From a virus, in IMG/VR virus record IMGVR_UViG_3300048091_000435, positions 1 to 40,454 of that record: a DNA stretch of 40,454 nucleotides, one strand, 5' to 3'. The position numbers were made by a program, and so were the translations under genes. Of this stretch, positions 1,982 through 40,454 are shown piece by piece. The stretch's first letter is position 1. Each line of letters begins with the position of its first letter. The notes beneath the pieces are model-generated. The model was not told where the DNA came from. It did not search any database and saw only the letters and a list, made by a program, of their open reading frames with translations.

Positions 1982-3766
1982 CTAATGAGCCGCAGCTGCC
2001 GGTAAGGTCTCGATCATGTGCTTGATTGTGAGGTTGCCGAGCTTCGATCCCAATGCTGAGAAGTTATCTTGATTGTCCCTTAGATGCATTGCGTCGTTGT
2101 ATATAACTGCCAAGAGGAAGTATACCTCTGGAATTATTGCCCCCTTGGACTGAGCGAACTCCAGCTTAGCCACAGTCTTGTGAGTTGATAAGAATTCCTC
2201 GCGGAAAGCTGGATCAATCAGTTCATAGCCAAGCGCCTCAACTCGTCGGCGTACGGCGCTACAAACAGCAAGAGGGTCGAAACTATTATCTTGGATATAC
2301 CGCTCTAATTGCTTTCTGCAGTGCTCAGCAAACTGCGACGACTTTGCCAGAGCCTCAGGCAAGCCAAGAAGTTTAAATTCATTAGATAGGTCTCTGTCTT
2401 CGTGATGAAAATGTAGGAAAAATTTGGCGACCGGATCCTCAATGGATTTGTCACACCTCTTGATTATTATCTTTTCGACACCTCTATCTGCCGCGGCACA
2501 TTTATTTAGATAACAAACTTTTTGATCGCTGAAGGTGAAATTTCTGAAAAGGCCAGGATTCAAATGAGTCATAATCAACGGAAAAATCTGGCGGCCTTCC
2601 GATTTTATTTCTGCGATCATTTGCGTCAGGTAATACTGGCAGGCAACTAGGTTTGCGTCGTCCAGATAATCGAATATTTCATCGATGATGATAATGCATT
2701 TGTTCTTTTTAAGTTTAAGCTTGGCTTTTTTTAATTGAGCCACAAAGCAAATAATGTCGCGCTCACCATTGGAGATTTGATTTGCTTTTGGGAATGTTAC
2801 TACAAGCCCCTCTCCTGTTTCTTTAGGTGTTATGTTCTGCCACGTGCCTTTGAGAGCACTAAAGGTTTGAGCGTATGCGTTTTTTTCGACTAAGTAATTG
2901 GAACGCTCGCCCGCCTTTCTAAAGGTTGGCTTATCTTTGGCGTGAATGTCGGAAATTTGTAGTGCTGCGAGCACATTCTCAATCTCAGTGGGGTAGGCCG
3001 CCCCCGACTCCTTCAAAGCTTTTATGGTGTCGTATACGTAAGCCACAGCCACTACTGCTTCACAATCTTCGGGGGCAATGCTGGCGAGAATACTTGCGGA
3101 GTTACCATTGGCAGAGTTTATTTTATCCTTTAGGGCTTTTATTGTATTGTTGATTCCAACCTGTCCTTGTTTTGAAAAATCAACCTGATTCCAAATCTTG
3201 GCCATCAGGGGGTTATCTGTCAGAAGGTTAGAGATGTTTGGAAGCACCTTTCCATTATTGCCGAAATCCGTTTTGGCTGTGGAATACGAATATGCAAACT
3301 TGGCTGCCGCAGGGATGGTTTTAATGAGAACGACTGGGTGAACTTCGATAGCAGACGTAACAGTAATGGTGCCGCTAATCTTTAGTTTTTTCGCTTTCGA
3401 CACAAGCTGGCTATTAATTACGTGAATGTCGAATATTGCGTCTAGCTCATTTTTTTTGTCGTCCGCTTCCTTTTCAATGGTGGTGCCATCCTGCATTGTG
3501 TAGGTTAACTTCAAGCTTGGCTTAAGGGATTCGTTACCTTTATGGGTGTTATCCTTGTGCAATTCAATTCGCTTCGAATTCAAAGAAGCGAAAGCAGCGG
3601 TAATAGAGCTTTTCCCAAAACCGTTTGGAGCAACAATGAGTGTTGGTTTATTTGGGATGAGTAGGACGTCGAAAGCGGTCTGGTCAATGCCTTTAACATT
3701 GCTTATTGCGATTCTTTCCATTCGCTTGATCATATAGTATCCAATCCTTTCCATTGGTGAAGGCAT
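1982..3766 (-). CDS. SMC/ABC-type AAA ATPase, probable defence protein
   Basis: A 594-residue ATPase of the RecF/SMC/AAA_13 kind. Walker A is APNGFGKSS (residues 46-54), the ABC-like signature is ISNGERD (about 329), and Walker B is IIIIDEIFDYLDD (about 359-371). There is no long coiled coil and no C-terminal TOPRIM motif, so it is neither a Rad50-like protein nor an OLD nuclease. The C-terminal 160 residues are helical, with RRRVEALG near 505 and YNDAMH at 556-561. The gene is much more AT-rich than the phage core and ends 28 bp from the integrase gene, same strand. An internal start (MIKRMERI, ATG at 3733) is possible; the first ATG has GAGG 5 bases upstream. Family relatives often work in abortive-infection systems; here the function is inferred only. 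Confidence 0.7.
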   Translation of the reverse strand: MPSPMERIGYYMIKRMERIAISNVKGIDQTAFDVLLIPNKPTLIVAPNGFGKSSITAAFASLNSKRIELHKDNTHKGNESLKPSLKLTYTMQDGTTIEKEADDKKNELDAIFDIHVINSQLVSKAKKLKISGTITVTSAIEVHPVVLIKTIPAAAKFAYSYSTAKTDFGNNGKVLPNISNLLTDNPLMAKIWNQVDFSKQGQVGINNTIKALKDKINSANGNSASILASIAPEDCEAVVAVAYVYDTIKALKESGAAYPTEIENVLAALQISDIHAKDKPTFRKAGERSNYLVEKNAYAQTFSALKGTWQNITPKETGEGLVVTFPKANQISNGERDIICFVAQLKKAKLKLKKNKCIIIIDEIFDYLDDANLVACQYYLTQMIAEIKSEGRQIFPLIMTHLNPGLFRNFTFSDQKVCYLNKCAAADRGVEKIIIKRCDKSIEDPVAKFFLHFHHEDRDLSNEFKLLGLPEALAKSSQFAEHCRKQLERYIQDNSFDPLAVCSAVRRRVEALGYELIDPAFREEFLSTHKTVAKLEFAQSKGAIIPEVYFLLAVIYNDAMHLRDNQDNFSALGSKLGNLTIKHMIETLPAAAAH

Positions 3767-3794: not shown

Positions 3795-4961
3795 CTACAG
3801 ATTCAGAGCGTGTTGTAGGATGCTGATGACGTCCGGACCGTCCTCGTTGATCCAGGTGCCATAGTGCTGGCGGATCATGTTCCCATTCGTATGCCCCATC
3901 TGCTCTGCGATCCAGTCAATCGACGCCACCCCCGTCGTCAGCAACTGACTGGCGTAGGTATGCCGGCACTGCCCAGGCCCACGATACCGAACCCCGGCCG
4001 CATTCAAGTGCGCCTTAAAAAACCGATCCCGCACAACAAAGTCGCTCACATGCGGCAATCCGCTTTTGCTGTTCAGAAAAACGAAGTGTAGTTTGTGCTG
4101 CCGCACTGTCTTGTTATCCCGCTCAACAATCTCGACTGTCTCCGTCTTCTTCTTCTGATTAATTGCATTGATCTTGCGCAACGCATCCCATGCCGGCTCC
4201 AGCAGCCGCACCTTCCGCGTCGAACGCCGAGTTTTCGTTACCCGATACGCCCCGCGTACTTTTGAGCGGCGGAAAATTACCGTCCCTCGCTCCAGGTCGA
4301 CATCCTCCCAAGCCAGGGCAATGGTTTCTGAAACCCGTGGCCCAGCCCAAATCATGAACTGCACCATCAACAGCTCCTGTGTGCGGCTGGTTGGCGTTTC
4401 GAGAATTTGTTTGATTTCCGCCCTGGTGAACGGGTCCGGAGCTTCTGGATCAGGCAGGCGAACGAACAATCCTTCAGTCGGATCATGAGCCACCTTTTTA
4501 CGAGTGCGATACAGCCTGAAGACTTGGCGCACGTTGCTGATGATGTCTCGAATGGTCTTGTTCTTGAGCCTCTTCGATAGTGTGTCCTGCACCCACTCCT
4601 GCAAATCCAAATGATCAATCTGGTCTATCTGAACCTTGCCCCAACGCGGCCGGACATGGACCTCTGCTTTGTTGGCGTACCCCCGGTAGGAAGTGGCGGC
4701 AACGCTGTTGCATTTGATCTTCAGCCACAGGTCCAGGTAACAGCCGAAGGTGTTTTCGACCAGTCTGGGCGAGTTGGGAAAATGCCGGCTGTATTCGAAA
4801 GTGCCGGCCTGTATCTCGTACTCGATGATGTTCACCAAGCGCGCGGCATGCTCCCGGTTGGCTGCTGTGTTGCCGCCGGGGACAAGCTCCCGGCACAACT
4901 CGCCATTGAAACGAAAATAGACCCGTACCGAATTGCCACGGGCCTCTACGCCATCTGCCAT
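3795..4961 (-). CDS. int: Phage tyrosine integrase
   Basis: Site-specific recombinase that integrates and excises the prophage. The chosen start (MADGVEARGNSV) gives 388 residues and has GGGGA 5 bases upstream. The frame stays open to 5042, but that extension crosses a hairpin at 5012-5033 and has no protein-like character. An arm-binding domain (about 1-70) and a core-binding domain are followed by the catalytic domain: the Arg in GPRVSETIALAW, a Lys-rich beta turn (KTRRSTRKVRL), the GQCRHTYAS box, and GHTNGNMIRQHYGTWI with the nucleophilic Tyr. The first His of the usual HxxR box is Gly here (GQCR), a change I believe is common in phage integrases of this subgroup. As the last gene of the early leftward operon, its 3' end should face attL. 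Confidence 0.93.
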   Translation of the reverse strand: MADGVEARGNSVRVYFRFNGELCRELVPGGNTAANREHAARLVNIIEYEIQAGTFEYSRHFPNSPRLVENTFGCYLDLWLKIKCNSVAATSYRGYANKAEVHVRPRWGKVQIDQIDHLDLQEWVQDTLSKRLKNKTIRDIISNVRQVFRLYRTRKKVAHDPTEGLFVRLPDPEAPDPFTRAEIKQILETPTSRTQELLMVQFMIWAGPRVSETIALAWEDVDLERGTVIFRRSKVRGAYRVTKTRRSTRKVRLLEPAWDALRKINAINQKKKTETVEIVERDNKTVRQHKLHFVFLNSKSGLPHVSDFVVRDRFFKAHLNAAGVRYRGPGQCRHTYASQLLTTGVASIDWIAEQMGHTNGNMIRQHYGTWINEDGPDVISILQHALNL

Positions 4962-5011
4962 GTGCGTCCCCACGCAATGTATTGAACAACCGACCAGCCT
5001 CCTGGAAGAGG

Positions 5012-5033
5012 AAAGGCCCGTTACCGGGCCTTT
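5012..5033 (-). terminator. Hairpin upstream of int, possible terminator
   Basis: AAAGGCCCG and CGGGCCTTT form a perfect 9-bp stem around a 4-base loop. On the minus strand it follows the 69-residue gene (stop at 5053) and precedes the int start (4961). The downstream tract is only TTTCCTCTTCC, so termination is probably partial, which would lower int expression from the early operon. Confidence 0.5.
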
Positions 5034-5052
5034 CAGGGTCAAGTGTTGCCGA

Positions 5053-24672: not shown

Positions 24673-25893
24673 ATGTTGTCAATTATGCATCCAAGCGTTA
24701 TGCGAAAGGTTCATGAGTTATCTGTCGGGCTTCTGCCTGTAATAATTAAGGCTGATTCGATTCCTAAGTTGATAGTTAAAGTATCTAAGGAGGCCATCTT
24801 AACGGCTAAGGTTAGGAAGGGGTTCCTGATTTATTTGATTCCGTATGAGGTTTTGGGGGTTAAGTCTGTTGGTTTTTTGGCGGCTTTTTTTGATGATCAA
24901 CACCATCCTTATACGGCGAGCGGCGCGCTGATTAGGGAGTTGTCAGGAAGGGAGCTTTCTAAGTTGTTCGTCGCTCCCGTAGTTGATGTGCATTTTTTCG
25001 ACGAGCTTGGGAGGGAAATGTTGGCCTATCGGGCAGATTTTAAATCTACCAAGAAACATCGAGATGTGTTACGTGGGGCAGTTATTCCGAGCATTCATGG
25101 ATTGAATCAAGGTGCAGTTCTTGATCAGATCAATGATTGGTACAAGCTCAGTAGTTTGGAAGATGATGCTTCGGCAATAAAAGTAACCTTTGTAGAACCG
25201 ATCATGCCAGAGGATATTGTTTATTTTGATTTGCGTCATGATGTCAACAGCTATCACGGGAGTCCAGGTTTTAGTGAGGCTCCCCTTGAGCGTGAGATTC
25301 CCGGGCCACCTCAAGAGAAAGAGATAATCGCTTTGCTTCAACGTACTTTCGATTCTAATGAAATCTATTTGGCACCAAAAAGGACAGACGATAAAAGGGA
25401 GGTGGTCGATATTCTCGTTGTCACAGATCAGAGTGTCATTTTGATCCAGGCTAAGGATAATCAGAATCTTGAAAGCATCCTAAATAAGACGATTGAAAAA
25501 AAACGAACGGCGACAAATAAAGCGTTGAAGAAGGGGCTTGATCAAGTTGGGGGTGGAATAACTTACCTTAAAAAGTCGTCACTTTTAGTGTTTTTGATGG
25601 ATGGGGATGAGGTCGAAATAGATTTGACCGGTAAGAGAATTTATTCGATTGTCATTGTCAAAGAATTATTTATTGATGATTATGATGTTTATACGCCGCC
25701 TATGCTTGAGCTGTATGAGAGGACTGGAGTCCCATGCATCCCATTGTCGTATAGTGAGTTGCATCAATACACGCGCTTTATTCAGGGGGATCAACCATTC
25801 TTCGAGGCTTTTATAAAGGTTTTTAATCATGGGTTAGAAACAGGAATGTTCCCCCGTCTGCGAGTGTTGCCCCCTGGTTCTATTGTTAACTAA
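24673..25893 (+). CDS. Cargo gene with PD-(D/E)XK-like motif, function unknown
   Basis: A 406-residue protein in AT-rich DNA, inserted on the plus strand between the end of the S operon and the V start. Residues 243-261 read EVVDILVVTDQSVILIQAK: D246 followed by Q259-x-K261, the pattern of restriction-like nucleases with Q in place of E, and E217 is a candidate for the upstream acidic residue. The first 200 residues show alternating strands and helices without a motif I know; residues about 290-406 are mixed. No signal peptide or membrane segment. The ATG has AAAGGAG 8 bases upstream. It ends with a 4-bp convergent overlap with gpS. The position fits a phage moron, possibly for superinfection defence; this is inference. 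Confidence 0.8.
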   Translation: MLSIMHPSVMRKVHELSVGLLPVIIKADSIPKLIVKVSKEAILTAKVRKGFLIYLIPYEVLGVKSVGFLAAFFDDQHHPYTASGALIRELSGRELSKLFVAPVVDVHFFDELGREMLAYRADFKSTKKHRDVLRGAVIPSIHGLNQGAVLDQINDWYKLSSLEDDASAIKVTFVEPIMPEDIVYFDLRHDVNSYHGSPGFSEAPLEREIPGPPQEKEIIALLQRTFDSNEIYLAPKRTDDKREVVDILVVTDQSVILIQAKDNQNLESILNKTIEKKRTATNKALKKGLDQVGGGITYLKKSSLLVFLMDGDEVEIDLTGKRIYSIVIVKELFIDDYDVYTPPMLELYERTGVPCIPLSYSELHQYTRFIQGDQPFFEAFIKVFNHGLETGMFPRLRVLPPGSIVN

Positions 25894-32299: not shown

Positions 32300-34057
32300 A
32301 TGACTACGACCGAACTGCTGCCCATCGATCCCCGCCGCCAATCCAAGTTTCTCTATTGGATGGGGTGGCGCATCTGTGAGATCGCCGAGGCTACGGGCGA
32401 AAAGGAAAAAACGCTACACAGCTGGAAGGCCCGCGACGAATGGGACAGGGCTGACAACATTGAGCGCATCGGTGGAGCGCTGGAAGCCCGATTGGTGCAG
32501 TTGATCCTCAAGGACAACAAAAGCGGTGGCGACTTCAAGGAAATCGACCTGTTGCACCGTCAGTTGGAGCGGCAGGCCCGAATTCAACGCTTCCAGAGCG
32601 GTGGTACCGAAACCGAACTCAACCCGAACCTGGCCAAACGCAACGAGGGACCGAAGAAGAAAACCCCGAAAAACGACATCAGCGAAGACCAGATCGAGCT
32701 GTTGCGTGAAGCGTTCATCGATGGCTGTTTCGACTACCAAAAAGACTGGTACCGGGCCGGCAATCAACGGACCCGCGTCATCCTCAAAAGCCGGCAGATT
32801 GGTGCAACCTACTACTTCGCTCGCGAGGCGTTTATCGATGCCCTGGACACCGGGCGCAATCAGATTTTTCTCTCTGCATCGAAGAACCAGGCCTACCTAT
32901 TTCGCGGATACATCCAAGCCTTTGCCCGCGAGGTGATCGGCGTTGAGCTGACCGGCGATCCCATTGTGTTGCCCAATGGCGCCGAGCTGTTTTTCCTCGG
33001 CACCAACGCCCGTACTGCCCAGGGCTATCACGGCAATTTCTACTTCGACGAATTCTTCTGGACGTTCAAGTTTGAAGAGCTGAACAAGGTCGCCTCGGGC
33101 ATGGCGATGCACAAGAAGTGGCGCAAAACCTACTTCTCGACGCCATCGAGCATGGCACACGAGGCCTACACCTTCTGGACGGGCGAGCGCTTCAACAAGG
33201 GCAAGCCCGCCGCGCAGCACACGAAGGTCGACGTGTCCCATGGCGCACTCCAGCAAGGGCGGTTCTGCGAGGACCGGTTGTGGCGGCAGATCGTCACAAT
33301 CCTCGACGCGGAGCAGGGCGGTTGTGATCTGTTTGACATCGAAGAGCTGCGCCGCGAGTACAGCCCCGAGGCGTTCGCCAACTTGCTGATGTGCGAATTC
33401 GTGGACGACGGTGCAAGCATCTTCCCACTGACCGTATTGCAGCCGTGCATGGTGGACAGCTGGGTCGAATGGGCTGAGGACTACAAGCCCTTTGCTATGC
33501 GGCCGTTCGGAGACCGTCAGGTGTGGGTCGGCTATGACCCGGCAGAAACGGGGGACTGTTCTGGCTTGGTGGTATGCGCGCCGCCGTTGGTACCTGGCGG
33601 CAAATTCCGTGTGCTCGAGCGCCACCAATTTCGTGGTATGGACTTCGCCGCCCAGGCCGCCGCGATCAAAGGAGTCTGCGATCGCTACTGGGTGACTTAC
33701 ATCGGCATCGACGTCACCGGTCTGGGTAGTGGCGTGGCCCAGTTGGTGCGCCAGTTCTTCCCTGCGGTCACCACCTTCAGCTATTCGCCCGAAGTCAAAA
33801 CGCGCCTGGTGCTCAAAGCATATGACGTTATCCACAAGGGGCGGCTGGAGTTCGACGCCGGCTGGACCGATATGGCCCAGTCACTGATGGCCATCCGCAA
33901 AACCATCACCGCCGGCGGCCGCCAGTTCACCTACACCGCCGGCCGCAACGACAACACGGGCCACGCCGACTTGGCGTGGGCGCTCTTTCACGCATTGCAC
34001 AACGAACCGCTTGAGGGGCAGACCGCTGCCAATACCGGGCGGATGGAGATTTATTGA
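32300..34057 (+). CDS. P: Terminase large subunit gpP (packaging ATPase)
   Basis: A 585-residue ATPase (P2: 590). The N-terminal HTH (GWRICEIAEATGEKEKTLHSW) is followed by a Walker A-like VILKSRQIGAT (about 160-170), Walker B YFDEFF (about 248-253) and a C-terminal nuclease-fold region starting VGYDPAETGD (about 411). It pumps DNA into the prohead. Start: ATG 32300 (MTTTELLPIDPRR); the earlier ATG at 32279 is also open but lies nearer the Ogr site. Divergent from O and overlapping Q, as in P2. Confidence 0.94.
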   Translation: MTTTELLPIDPRRQSKFLYWMGWRICEIAEATGEKEKTLHSWKARDEWDRADNIERIGGALEARLVQLILKDNKSGGDFKEIDLLHRQLERQARIQRFQSGGTETELNPNLAKRNEGPKKKTPKNDISEDQIELLREAFIDGCFDYQKDWYRAGNQRTRVILKSRQIGATYYFAREAFIDALDTGRNQIFLSASKNQAYLFRGYIQAFAREVIGVELTGDPIVLPNGAELFFLGTNARTAQGYHGNFYFDEFFWTFKFEELNKVASGMAMHKKWRKTYFSTPSSMAHEAYTFWTGERFNKGKPAAQHTKVDVSHGALQQGRFCEDRLWRQIVTILDAEQGGCDLFDIEELRREYSPEAFANLLMCEFVDDGASIFPLTVLQPCMVDSWVEWAEDYKPFAMRPFGDRQVWVGYDPAETGDCSGLVVCAPPLVPGGKFRVLERHQFRGMDFAAQAAAIKGVCDRYWVTYIGIDVTGLGSGVAQLVRQFFPAVTTFSYSPEVKTRLVLKAYDVIHKGRLEFDAGWTDMAQSLMAIRKTITAGGRQFTYTAGRNDNTGHADLAWALFHALHNEPLEGQTAANTGRMEIY

Positions 34058-35064
34058 TGACCGAACAACTCGCCAGCCAGACACTGATGCCCGCCATCCC
34101 CGCGTCACCTGCCAGCCAGGGCACGCAGGTGTTCAGCTTTGGCGAGCCGTCGCCGGTATTGGGTGGTAGGGAAGTATTCGACTACCTGGAGTGCTGGTTT
34201 AACGGTCGCTGGTACGAGCCGCCGCTGTCCCTCGATGGCCTGGCCCGGTCGGTGGGGGCGAGCGTGCATTTGCATTCGGGCTTGATGTTCAAGCGCAATC
34301 TGTTGAGTAAGACCTTTATCCCACATCCGCTGTTTTCTCGGGCCGCGTTCGAACAATTCGCCCTGGACTTTTTGTGCCTGGGCAATGGTTATCTTGAAGC
34401 TCGGCGCTCAGTACTTGGCAACACCCGGCAACTGGCGCCGCCGCTCGCGAAATACATGCGGGCTGGACTCGATGGGCAGTACTACCAAGTGCGAGGTTGG
34501 AAGGATGAGCATGCATTCGAACCAGGCAGCATTTTCCATCTCCGTGAGGCGGACCTACACCAGGAGATTTATGGACTGCCGGAGTGGATCAGTGCCTTGC
34601 AGTCAGCCTTACTGAACGAGTCAGCCACCTTGTTCCGTCGCAAGTACTACGAGAACGGCAGTCATGCCGGGTTCATCCTGTACATGACGGACGCGGCGCA
34701 GACTGAGACCGACATCGACGCACTGCGCAAGGCGCTCAAGGAATCGAAGGGACCAGGAAATTTTCGAAATCTTTTTGTGTACTCACCGACCGGCAAGAAA
34801 GACGGGATTCAGTTGATCCCTGTCAGCGAGGTGGCGGCAAAGGATGAGTTCAACTCGATCAAGAATCAGACACGGGATGATGTGTTGGCCAGCCTGCGCA
34901 TTCCACCGCAGCTTATGGGTATCGTGCCTCAGAACGCTGGGGGATTTGGGTCGATTAAGGAGGCAATCGATGTTTGGATGGCTAATGAGCTAGAACCGAT
35001 TCAAGAAAGAATGACTCAGCTGAATGATTGGGTAGGGGAGGAAGTTGTAAAGTTCAAAATATAG
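34057..35064 (+). CDS. Q: Portal protein gpQ
   Basis: A 335-residue portal (P2: 344). VFSFGEPSPVLGGREVFDYLECW is the family opening and DDVLASLRIPPQLMGIVPQNAGGFGS the conserved C-terminal portal motif. It forms the dodecameric DNA gate of the head. The ATG at 34057 shares one base with the P stop, and GGAG lies 8 bases upstream; a TTG three bases earlier is less likely. It is followed by the Hachiman-type operon on the opposite strand. Confidence 0.95.
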   Translation: MTEQLASQTLMPAIPASPASQGTQVFSFGEPSPVLGGREVFDYLECWFNGRWYEPPLSLDGLARSVGASVHLHSGLMFKRNLLSKTFIPHPLFSRAAFEQFALDFLCLGNGYLEARRSVLGNTRQLAPPLAKYMRAGLDGQYYQVRGWKDEHAFEPGSIFHLREADLHQEIYGLPEWISALQSALLNESATLFRRKYYENGSHAGFILYMTDAAQTETDIDALRKALKESKGPGNFRNLFVYSPTGKKDGIQLIPVSEVAAKDEFNSIKNQTRDDVLASLRIPPQLMGIVPQNAGGFGSIKEAIDVWMANELEPIQERMTQLNDWVGEEVVKFKI

Positions 35065-35111: not shown

Positions 35112-35130
35112 GCGGGGAAAAGCTCCCCGC
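35112..35130. terminator. Hairpin between portal and helicase genes
   Basis: GCGGGGA-AAAGC-TCCCCGC, a perfect 7-bp GC-rich stem, sits in the 81-bp gap between two convergent genes. Neither side has a good T-run, but the position suits a two-way terminator. Confidence 0.45.
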
Positions 35131-35145
35131 GATAGTAGTTGTTGG

Positions 35146-37263
35146 CTAGTTGTCCCGTTTTGAGCGAGATGTTGGAGTTGTTTTATTTATCCCCTCAAAA
35201 AAATATTCGAGAATATAGACGTCAAAAAAAGTCAGGCTGTTCGTGCGTCGTCTTATTTGCGTTAATCCTATGCTGTTGAATTTATCTATTGCTTGATGAA
35301 TTGTGAAGTCTTGGGTTTCAAAATTTATTACCTTGCTTTCATGAAGTTTTTTGGAAATCATTCTTGGGAGGCCATATTCTTCTAGTTGGTAAACTATAGA
35401 TGGCAAAAAAGCGTGAGCAACTTTCGCGGCGAATGGGGAAATGTCTAAGTTGGTTTTTTTGAGAATGACTTTTTGTAGGGTGTTCACATCTTTTAGTAAG
35501 GACGAAAGTTTGAATGTTGCATTTTTTTCTAGCTTAAAAAATAGATTAACATCTATGTTGTGTTTTTTTAACTCTGTTAGAAGTTCTGGTATGCTCTTGC
35601 TCCAGTTTTGCGAAAGTATTTTTACGAACGCAACAAATCTACTATGCTCAATTTCCCAAATACCCGGTTGGAATTTTATTATTTTATACAGGTAAGCATC
35701 CCAATGTTGGGTTTCACTTGAGTTTAAATAAGAGAGGCCGCGCCAATATTCGGGGTTGTTCTGTAATTCGGCTGCTATTGTTTTTACTACCGCGCCGCCA
35801 CATTGGAGGGAGTTATCATTTTGGAATTTTTCAAAGTTGCTGGTTCCGATTATTTCAGATAACTCCTCTCTGTAGGCAATGATTTTTCCTATCTGCTCTC
35901 TCGATAGGTCACCTTTATAATCCTGTTCGTTAATGTCACTGAGTAGGGCGTCTGGGAGAACTAAGTCTAACGATGTGTCTATGGGTTCAGGCGGTTTCTC
36001 AAGAATAAAAACATGCCCTATGAAGTGCTTGAACATTCTTCCACTTCGGCCAATGATATTTTTGTAGGTGAAGTCGTTAAGCTTTGAGCTGCCGTTTTTG
36101 TTTCTCCAAATTACGACGTTTTCAGCGGACGTGTTAACTCCCTCGATAATTGATGAAGTGGAGATAATGTTTTTCAGTCCGAATGGTTCTTCGAATAATT
36201 TTATTTGAATTTGACTTAAGGAGCGGTGTAGTTGGCCGTTATGGATGCCTGTTGATTTTTTAATTAATTTTACGAGTGGCCAAGTGCTTGAGTAGTTCTT
36301 TGATATCCATTTTGAAAATTGGTCAAGTAAGTGGCTTTCTGTACTTGCTAAGTTGCTTATTGCGAGAGCGGAGACTCTGTCAATATCTGCATATGTTCCT
36401 GCATATACAAGAGTTTTTCCGCTGTTTTCTCTTAATATTTTAGTGAGTGCTAGGTTTTTCTGTTCTTCATTGCTGATCTTTTTATATAAATCATGCTTCG
36501 CTAGAAATACAGTGTTGAAATCCAGGGAGATGAAGCGCATTCCTTTGGTAAAAGGGTTTTCATTTAATTTTGATATGTTTGGTGCTAAGAAGTACCGCTG
36601 CTTGGAAATGGCTCCCAGCTTAATGATTGATTTGATCAGTGCACTCGATCTTTCCTTGTCGAAAGCTGCACTCGCTTTATAAAATTCATCCACAACGAGT
36701 ATGTCAATATCTTTGAGTTTTGGGATATAGGTGATTGCTCGCTCTTGCGGAAAGATGAATATATTCTTTTTGCCTGGGGCGGCTTCTGTTGTCGTTATGA
36801 TCTTGTATGTGTCGGAGAATTTTGGGTAAAGACGGCGGCGAGTTTCGTCAGTTAGAGCGATTGTTGGTACGATTATAACTACATTGTTAGGTTTTTTTAT
36901 TGAAATAAATGAATCGATGACGAAGCTCTTTCCGAAGCTGGTTGGAGCGCTAATAGCTAGGCTTTCTCCGCTCAATAGGGCTTTAAGAAGGTTCGATTGT
37001 TCTCTATGTAAAGTGAGCGGTTCCGTAGCGCCAGTATCAACCTTAAATGCTTCGTAGACAAAACGATCCTGCCAATCCGCGGTATCCTTCTGTATGTATG
37101 GATACAGGCCGGCAGATCTTATTAAATGATTAACTAAAGGAGTGTAGTTGATGTTGTTGGATTCATGGTGTGCTAAAAGTTTTATCAGCGCGTTTCTTGC
37201 TTCGTCTTCGAGATTAGAGTTTATTAGATCATTGATTTCAGAACAGCTAGCAAAGATATCCAT
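35146..37263 (-). CDS. hamB: Hachiman-type helicase HamB (AbpB-like)
   Basis: A 705-residue superfamily 2 helicase in AT-rich DNA. LHREQSNLL (Q89) precedes Walker A SAPTSFGKS (105-113); motif Ia is IIVPTIALTDE; motif II is LVVDEFYK (about 189-196); the second RecA domain carries STSSIIEGVN and motif VI IIGRSGRMF near 406, which places it near the Ski2-like group. It starts 2 bp after the HamA stop. Helicase plus DUF1837 nuclease is the Hachiman defence pair; in known systems HamB senses DNA damage or phage DNA intermediates and releases HamA. Its length is close to that of E. coli AbpB, so an AbpAB-type label is the alternative. Confidence 0.85.
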   Translation of the reverse strand: MDIFASCSEINDLINSNLEDEARNALIKLLAHHESNNINYTPLVNHLIRSAGLYPYIQKDTADWQDRFVYEAFKVDTGATEPLTLHREQSNLLKALLSGESLAISAPTSFGKSFVIDSFISIKKPNNVVIIVPTIALTDETRRRLYPKFSDTYKIITTTEAAPGKKNIFIFPQERAITYIPKLKDIDILVVDEFYKASAAFDKERSSALIKSIIKLGAISKQRYFLAPNISKLNENPFTKGMRFISLDFNTVFLAKHDLYKKISNEEQKNLALTKILRENSGKTLVYAGTYADIDRVSALAISNLASTESHLLDQFSKWISKNYSSTWPLVKLIKKSTGIHNGQLHRSLSQIQIKLFEEPFGLKNIISTSSIIEGVNTSAENVVIWRNKNGSSKLNDFTYKNIIGRSGRMFKHFIGHVFILEKPPEPIDTSLDLVLPDALLSDINEQDYKGDLSREQIGKIIAYREELSEIIGTSNFEKFQNDNSLQCGGAVVKTIAAELQNNPEYWRGLSYLNSSETQHWDAYLYKIIKFQPGIWEIEHSRFVAFVKILSQNWSKSIPELLTELKKHNIDVNLFFKLEKNATFKLSSLLKDVNTLQKVILKKTNLDISPFAAKVAHAFLPSIVYQLEEYGLPRMISKKLHESKVINFETQDFTIHQAIDKFNSIGLTQIRRRTNSLTFFDVYILEYFFEGINKTTPTSRSKRDN

Positions 37264-37265
37264 TT

Positions 37266-38195
37266 CTATTGCTCCTTGTAGTGTTTTACATTTGATAGAA
37301 ACTTGTCAACGATGATTTTCTTGGAGGGGACGGGGAAAAGAATTATGTGGAAATTAATTTCGCTGTATTTGTGAAGGGTGTTTATTTTCTTTATTTGTTT
37401 TTTGAAATAGGCGGTGGCTCTATCTGTATGGTGTGTTGCTATATTTTCTTTGTAACTGCTAGTCATTTCTTTTTGTGCTTTAGTAATATCGCACTCGTGT
37501 ATCAGTAAGATGGGTATATTGATTTTATGTTTGAGGGTGTCAATGGATTCCTGAGGTGATAATGTTTCTTTTATGTTGCGTCGCATGTCTTCGTCATCGA
37601 TTATTAGGTCGATGTCATTGACGTTTATTATTATTGCGTTTTCTTTTTTAAGCTTGTCTGTTTTTATAGAATTGGCTACTGATTCAACTATTCTTCCGAG
37701 GTTTACATCTTCTATGCTGGTATAAAATTTTGCCTCGCCAAACCATATTGTAAAGTCATTCCCCGAAACTACGATGTGTACGCTGTCTGCCCCTTTCGCG
37801 TTATCTTGTGGATTTTGTTTGTAAAATATTTTTGGCACGACAGGTAGAGCGTGGAAATGATGTTTCATTATTCCGTATAAAACGATTTCTGCGAGCTCAC
37901 TTCCCGCGCCTATTTTGTCTTGTTTGTCAGTAAGCCTGAGGTTTTTTGCTGCCGAAGTAAGAAGTGAATGATTTACTAGGCTGTCTCGCTCTCTTTTGGA
38001 AAGCGCAGTTTCTGCGATGTTATCCCATATGAAGTTTTGAAATTGAGAGTAGCGCCATCTCCCGTCTTCAAAGTCATTTACTAGGCTAAGTATCCTTTTG
38101 TTGCTAATAGGGGTAAGGCCTTCTTCCAGGTTGAATTTCTCGAACAGATCATCAATGAGTATCTCGAAACCTAGTTTTTTTTGTATTTTTTTCAT
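37266..38195 (-). CDS. hamA: Hachiman-type nuclease HamA (DUF1837, AbpA-like)
   Basis: A 309-residue DUF1837 protein. The nuclease core is E100 in GAGSELAEIVLYG, D137 in KGADSVHIVV, then WFGEAK with E154 and K156, a PD-(D/E)XK arrangement. Residues 161-309 are a Lys-rich helical tail. It is followed after 2 bp by the helicase gene and overlaps an upstream small gene by four bases (ATGA), so all three are probably one transcript. In described Hachiman systems HamA degrades DNA when released by HamB and stops phage spread by killing or arresting the cell. Confidence 0.85.
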   Translation of the reverse strand: MKKIQKKLGFEILIDDLFEKFNLEEGLTPISNKRILSLVNDFEDGRWRYSQFQNFIWDNIAETALSKRERDSLVNHSLLTSAAKNLRLTDKQDKIGAGSELAEIVLYGIMKHHFHALPVVPKIFYKQNPQDNAKGADSVHIVVSGNDFTIWFGEAKFYTSIEDVNLGRIVESVANSIKTDKLKKENAIIINVNDIDLIIDDEDMRRNIKETLSPQESIDTLKHKINIPILLIHECDITKAQKEMTSSYKENIATHHTDRATAYFKKQIKKINTLHKYSEINFHIILFPVPSKKIIVDKFLSNVKHYKEQ

Positions 38196-38563
38196 TTCAT
38201 GCTCATTCTTGGCGCAATTTGGAGGAAGCTATTCCGTGTGCCAATACTAGTATGGTCGATCTTTGACTTGTAGGAAGCGCTGCTTTTAATATTTTCGATT
38301 GGCTTTGATGGTAGTTGAGTGCTTTTTAGGGAGGCGCTATTGGACGGCAGCCGTTTTATATTTCCGTTGCGTATACAGCTGGCAGTGGATGTACCAATTT
38401 TTTTCGGTAGAGAGGGCAACTCTGGGCGGGAATTAGCAACTCGACAACTCTTGTGACTTGTTTCTGAATGCGAACTTCCGTTTTCCAGTTCTTTGAGCTT
38501 ATTCACAAGCGAATCCCTTTGACCTATCCATGATGTCGTACTGCCACGAAGCTTACTCATCAT
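38192..38563 (-). CDS. Small basic protein coupled to hamA
   Basis: A 123-residue Ser/Lys/Asn-rich basic protein (MMSKLRGSTTSWIGQRDSLVNKLKELENG, then low-complexity SKPIENIKSSASYKSK). Only the first 27 residues look folded. Its stop overlaps the HamA start codon (AAATGAAAA), typical of translational coupling. There is no clear ribosome site before the two possible ATGs. It could be a third component, a regulator, or a decayed fragment; Hachiman normally has only two genes. Confidence 0.45.
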   Translation of the reverse strand: MMSKLRGSTTSWIGQRDSLVNKLKELENGSSHSETSHKSCRVANSRPELPSLPKKIGTSTASCIRNGNIKRLPSNSASLKSTQLPSKPIENIKSSASYKSKIDHTSIGTRNSFLQIAPRMSMK

Positions 38564-38648
38564 AGCGTCGTGGCACTCTCATATCACTAGACAAATCGTC
38601 GTACGGGCCGACTTTGGTGGGCAATCATTTCCCCTTTCGTTCAGCGCT

Positions 38649-38677
38649 GGCGCGCGCCGTCGTCCCCCCACCTCGCC
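38649..38677 (-). other. Candidate cos site (packaging end)
   Basis: On the minus strand from 38677 the sequence reads GGCGAGGTGGGGGGACGACG and runs on to GGCGCGCGCC. The P2 cohesive end, as I recall it, starts GGCGAGGCGGGG, so 11 of the first 12 bases agree. It lies on the far side of the portal gene and in the same orientation relative to Q as in P2, in a non-coding GC-rich stretch. Confidence 0.65.
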
Positions 38678-40133: not shown

Positions 40134-40454
40134 ATGATCACCACCACAACCCACACCATCGAAGGTCGGCAAATCACCGCCTACCTGGACATCGTCAGCG
40201 CCGAGTCGGTGCAGGGCGTTAACGTGATTCGCGATATGTTCGCCGGGATGCGGGATTTTTTTGGTGGGCGTTCTCAGACGTTGGAGCGGGCATTGAAGGA
40301 GGCGCGGGTTCAGGCGACCGAGGAGATCAAGGAGCGGGCGCGGGTGCTTCAGGCGGATGCGGTGGTGGGGCTCGATTATGAGATCAGTATGCCTGCCGGC
40401 AAGGGTGGGATGGTGGTGGTGTTTGTGACCGGGACGGCGGTCAAGCTGAGGTAG
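40134..40454 (+). CDS. YbjQ/UPF0145 family protein (host)
   Basis: A 106-residue member of the YbjQ family (UPF0145), small proteins that form pentamers and are often labelled heavy-metal-binding without firm proof. Features are TTTHTIEGRQITAYLDIVSAE, the GVNVIRDMFAGMRDFFGGRS stretch, and the end ADAVVGLDYEISMPAGKGGMVVVFVTGTAV. The ATG has AAGGA 6 bases upstream. It is chromosomal and unrelated to the prophage. Confidence 0.92.
   Translation: MITTTTHTIEGRQITAYLDIVSAESVQGVNVIRDMFAGMRDFFGGRSQTLERALKEARVQATEEIKERARVLQADAVVGLDYEISMPAGKGGMVVVFVTGTAVKLR

Follow-up and report, generated by a model that had tools for sequence, protein, structure and literature searches.

A two-gene Hachiman system carried as cos-proximal cargo by a P2-like phage, with an open frame ahead of it that is probably leader DNA

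Does a short open frame ahead of the Hachiman genes of a P2-like phage encode a third component of this defence system, or is it leader DNA that happens to be open? The locus lies in a virus record of 40,454 bases (IMGVR_UViG_3300048091_000435; the whole stretch is called the window here), which carries P2-family capsid, tail, baseplate, terminase and portal genes. The frame (orf123), hamA and hamB all lie on the minus strand, flanked by the portal gene on one side and a cos-like site on the other (Table 1). All three frames were found at the coordinates and on the strand given by the original prediction, which had read them as a Hachiman operon with a third, translationally coupled gene. As described below, our results suggest that this is probably an ordinary two-gene HamAB system, carried as cos-proximal cargo of a P2-like Pseudomonas-type prophage and preceded by a leader or spacer region that is open by chance.

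Table 1. Features of the Hachiman locus and its borders, in coordinates of the window.
Feature	Coordinates	Strand	Description
Portal gene (gpQ)	34054..35064	+	PHROG portal match (2.4e-146); left edge of the cargo slot
hamB	35146..37263	-	705-aa Ski2-like SF2 helicase, Hachiman sensor subunit; own strong ribosome-binding site
hamA	37266..38195	-	309-aa DUF1837 nuclease, D137 ... G153-E154-A155-K156
orf123	38192..38563	-	123-codon orphan candidate frame; TGA overlaps the hamA ATG (ATGA)
Weak sigma-70-like pair GTGATA-17-TATGAT	38559..38587	-	9/12 matches; -10 overlaps the first orf123 ATG codons
cos-like site GGCGAGGTGGGGGGACGACGG	38657..38677	-	21-nt motif, exact in 31 related loci

The products of hamA and hamB are genuine Hachiman proteins. 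HamA matches the Pfam HamA profile above its cutoff (6.7e-55), and its best PADLOC model is HamA2 (3.8e-154). The residues named beforehand (E100/D137/E154-x-K156) held up, since the catalytic positions E100, D137, G153, E154 and K156 do not vary among 29 aligned sequences, made of the window HamA and 28 relatives with 53-71% identity; the D - G-E-x-K motif of HamA has been described in two earlier studies (PMC12799240, PMC12278908). In a fold search with the AlphaFold model of HamA (pTM 0.84), three PDB chains and no others matched at E<=0.001, each of them a Hachiman HamA chain (8zue, 8vx9, 8vxy), with 13-14% identity in the fold alignment. By sequence alone HamA had no match in the PDB, which makes the fold match independent support. 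HamB matches the PADLOC models HamB2 (2.6e-250) and HamB1 (6e-226) over its full length and the solved HamB chain 8zue_B by phmmer (2.7e-59). The SF2 motifs claimed for it are present, with a Walker A (SAPTSFGKS), DEFY and IGRSGRM, and its ribosome-binding site forms an anti-SD duplex of -7.7 kcal/mol.

The original prediction had also placed these genes in a cargo slot of P2-like phages, after gpQ and before cos, and this is supported by conserved flanks and swapped contents among relatives. When DNA homology was tallied against 80 portal relatives from viral contigs, it ended for most of them at 35045-35063, that is, at the end of the portal gene. On the other side, the conserved DNA of relatives resumes abruptly at about 38644-38650, and beyond this edge lies the 21-nt motif, which we take to resemble the P2-type cos sequence. 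Both edges were located for 48 related P2-like phages; these keep portal and cos, but have exchanged the DNA in between. One relative (L099) shares 97% identity with the window immediately outside the slot, yet has different cargo inside. The cargo of the 48 loci, 0.7-5.3 kb long, is unrelated, often AT-rich and mostly on the minus strand, and includes reverse transcriptases, an XhoI restriction enzyme, an Eco57I-type methylase, a KAP NTPase, and TIR, SEFIR and Abi_C proteins. This agrees with the hotspot described in P2-like phages of E. coli, which adjoins cos between gpA and gpQ (PMC9122126). A hairpin without a T run (GCGGGGA-AAAGC-TCCCCGC, 35112-35130) was seen between the convergent portal and hamB genes, and is possibly a terminator shared by both.

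The original prediction took known Hachiman systems to consist of two genes. This premise is outdated, since versions with hamC and with hamM have been published. Type II systems, described by PADLOC, carry hamC (DUF3223) and make up about 3.8% of the total (PMC8565338), while in HamMAB systems the additional gene encodes a nuclease (PMC12799240). In the manner of hamC or hamM, orf123 might be a functional third subunit, acting as a regulator, a DNA-binding adaptor or a decoy: its position and orientation match those of hamC, which is found directly, or a short distance, upstream of hamA in 11/84 loci, and a protein of this kind, basic and disordered, might be able to bind nucleic acid. However, a six-frame profile search of the whole window, positive in 11 relatives, detected no hamC/DUF3223. 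Further, the HamA tree groups the window (100/99) with a hamC-less sister, Pseudomonas sp. KUIN-1, outside both hamC-bearing branches, and orf123 co-occurs with none of the 84 other hamA genes. We therefore regard a third subunit as highly improbable. The idea that orf123 is a degraded or diverged hamC was rejected on the lack of similarity in any frame and on the hamC-less tree position. Because hamC is absent and HamA falls outside the hamC-bearing branches, the window is type I by gene content. Features of HamMAB were not found either, HamA being a plain DUF1837 protein of 309 aa with its motif intact.

As for hamC itself, a DUF3223-like gene lies directly upstream of hamA in loci L057, L059, L060, L065, L073, L077, L078, L080, L081, L082 and L014. 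The first ten form one HamA branch (100/100), and L014, whose hamC is longer and diverged, stands apart from them, so that the association of hamC with hamA occurs on two separate branches of the tree.

Homologues of the 123-residue protein, and its co-occurrence upstream of DUF1837 genes, had been proposed as checks of the third gene, with a lack of homologues to count against it. None was detected in Pfam, NCBIfam, PADLOC, PHROGs, the PDB, phages, plasmids or viral contigs, and 0 of 84 other hamA loci have a homologue upstream of hamA. A search of 399 Pseudomonas genomes returned six weak, partial sub-0.01 matches (30-40%), five of which contain internal stops. At the DNA level, region 38100-38660 has no homologue in phages or plasmids, and the nearest Pseudomonas hamA genes resemble the window only from 27 bases into hamA onwards, in no case across the leader; no near-identical phages with the same operon were found. 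The frame was likewise missing from the cargo of all 48 slots of related phages, and was rejected as a conserved phage cargo gene for this reason. A known RNA was considered and rejected too, as the region has no Rfam match and the sole match was a sub-threshold snoRNA elsewhere.

These searches bear also on another reading, in which orf123 would be a real orphan gene, unrelated or weakly related, whose short Ser/Lys-rich disordered product is translated from the operon. It would act mainly through ATGA coupling, by which ribosomes are brought to the weak hamA start and the level of HamA is set. Its lack of homologues counts against this, although orphan genes are common in such cargo slots. 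The ATGA overlap, together with the weak Shine-Dalgarno sequence of hamA (-1.9 kcal/mol), would suit coupling. Nevertheless, the overlap arises automatically when the second codon of hamA begins with A, which accounts for an ATGA stop in 38/84 hamA loci, and in the sister locus L005 it ends an unrelated frame of 71 codons. The ribosome-binding site of hamA is equally weak in L005 (-2.1), and is weaker than -3 in 22/78 relatives. The claim of translational coupling is unsupported. As a general caution, when the second codon of a gene starts with A, an ATGA overlap at its start is poor evidence of operon membership.

Does the frame at least look coding? With 20% Ser and 11% Lys, its product is predicted by AlphaFold (single sequence) to form one helix at residues 12-29 and to be disordered elsewhere (pLDDT 61.8, pTM 0.21). 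The probability of 123 open codons in that one frame is about 0.001 under base composition and 0.003 under an order-2 Markov model, and 0.003-0.01 over any of the three frames, a length that is somewhat unusual, which favours an orphan gene, but not decisive. Serine codons are also in frame-specific excess, 25 of them against 10 and 7 in the other two frames, and the excess holds for both serine families (AGY 13/5/1 and TCN 12/5/6 in frames 0/1/2). Markov models conditioned on the open frame give P(Ser>=25) of 0.005, and since serine was chosen after seeing the sequence, this is weak support. On the other hand, the codon score of orf123 (-0.112) is indistinguishable from non-coding DNA: 27% of random sequences score as high. 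Real cargo windows have a median of +0.06, and set against 126 windows of real cargo genes that are AT-rich, orf123 ranks in the bottom 5%. Windows of hamA and hamB score +0.01 to +0.16. The 3-base periodicity is not significant (P 0.09), the ribosome-binding site of orf123 itself is weak (-3.1), and the nearest promoter-like -10, a match no better than chance, overlaps its first ATGs; sigma-70-like hexamer pairs are no more numerous than in shuffled sequences and are not evidence of function. What stands of the predicted 123-residue gene is therefore an open frame whose stop overlaps the hamA ATG, while its codon usage is random-like and it has no homologues in the collections searched. We consider an orphan gene possible but unlikely.

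Taken together, the comparisons made here indicate that orf123 is not a conserved Hachiman component. Most likely, the region is leader or spacer DNA that arrived together with this cargo and is open by accident. It seems to us improbable that a disordered leader protein particular to this lineage is translated and either sets the level of HamA through coupling or binds HamAB, which would make this a private three-gene Hachiman. As for the two-gene system that we favour, a mechanism can be proposed from the E. coli system that has been characterised, where a damage-sensing helicase frees a DNA-degrading nuclease (PMC12278908). HamB would patrol DNA and keep the HamA nuclease inactive. A free 3' single-stranded end made by the replication of a rival phage would then be loaded by HamB, which on hydrolysing ATP would release or activate HamA; the degradation of phage and host DNA that might follow would kill the infected lysogen without release of the competitor. 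The locus adds a new example of Hachiman in the cos-proximal slot of a P2-like phage, and points to varied defence cargo in this slot among Pseudomonas-type P2 phages, as in those of E. coli.

Other genes of the record and of its relatives deserve mention. At the other end of the record, beyond the integrase (3795-5042), a Shedu SduA gene occupies positions 1-1434 (+; PADLOC 3.9e-196, Pfam SduA_C 3.3e-21). Between SduA and the integrase lies a gene for a 594-aa SMC/AAA-like ATPase (1982-3766, -), which matches PtuA and further ATPases of defence systems only weakly (E about 5e-6) and may be a defence gene not yet described. A plus-strand gene of 406 aa (24673-25893), whose sole match is a PHROG of unknown function (2.2e-11), stands among minus-strand tail genes and looks like a second cargo (moron) position. 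The window closes with a gene similar to the heavy-metal-binding YbjQ (40134-40454, +; Pfam 6.3e-32). In Olivibacter (L047), too, the gene ahead of hamA looks by eye like YbjQ, which is probably a coincidence. Finally, two other viral contigs have hamA: one (L002/L085) carries hamAB beside tail genes, and the other (L086) has hamA downstream of an integrase-like gene; Hachiman on phages is recurrent.

Several known systems can be compared with the one described here. HamMAB of Pseudomonas fluorescens (PMC12799240) shows that a three-gene Hachiman exists in this genus, but there the HamA motif is lost and a protease is joined to the protein, whereas the HamA of the window is unfused and keeps D-GEXK. 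The hamM of that system encodes a 42-kDa nuclease, whereas orf123 has 123 aa and no family match. Type II Hachiman (hamC plus hamAB; PMC8565338) is closer in that HamA2 and HamB2 are the best PADLOC models for both proteins and that a small frame lies upstream of hamA; the window differs in lacking hamC, in a HamA that falls outside the hamC branches and in an orf123 unrelated to DUF3223. With the cos-proximal defence hotspot of P2-like phages (gpA-cos-gpQ; PMC9122126) it shares variable defence cargo beside gpQ and cos, although the relatives of the window are Pseudomonas-type P2 phages and those of that study are from E. coli; a text search of that paper returned no mention of Hachiman. Type I HamAB of E. 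coli (8zue, 8vx9, 8vxy; PMC12278908) has, like the window, adjacent genes for a DUF1837 nuclease and an SF2 helicase, and the two share the catalytic D...G-E-x-K, the HamA fold and complete helicase motifs. In contrast to the E. coli system, the HamA of the window has low identity to the solved chains, resides in a P2-like phage and has an orphan open frame ahead of it.
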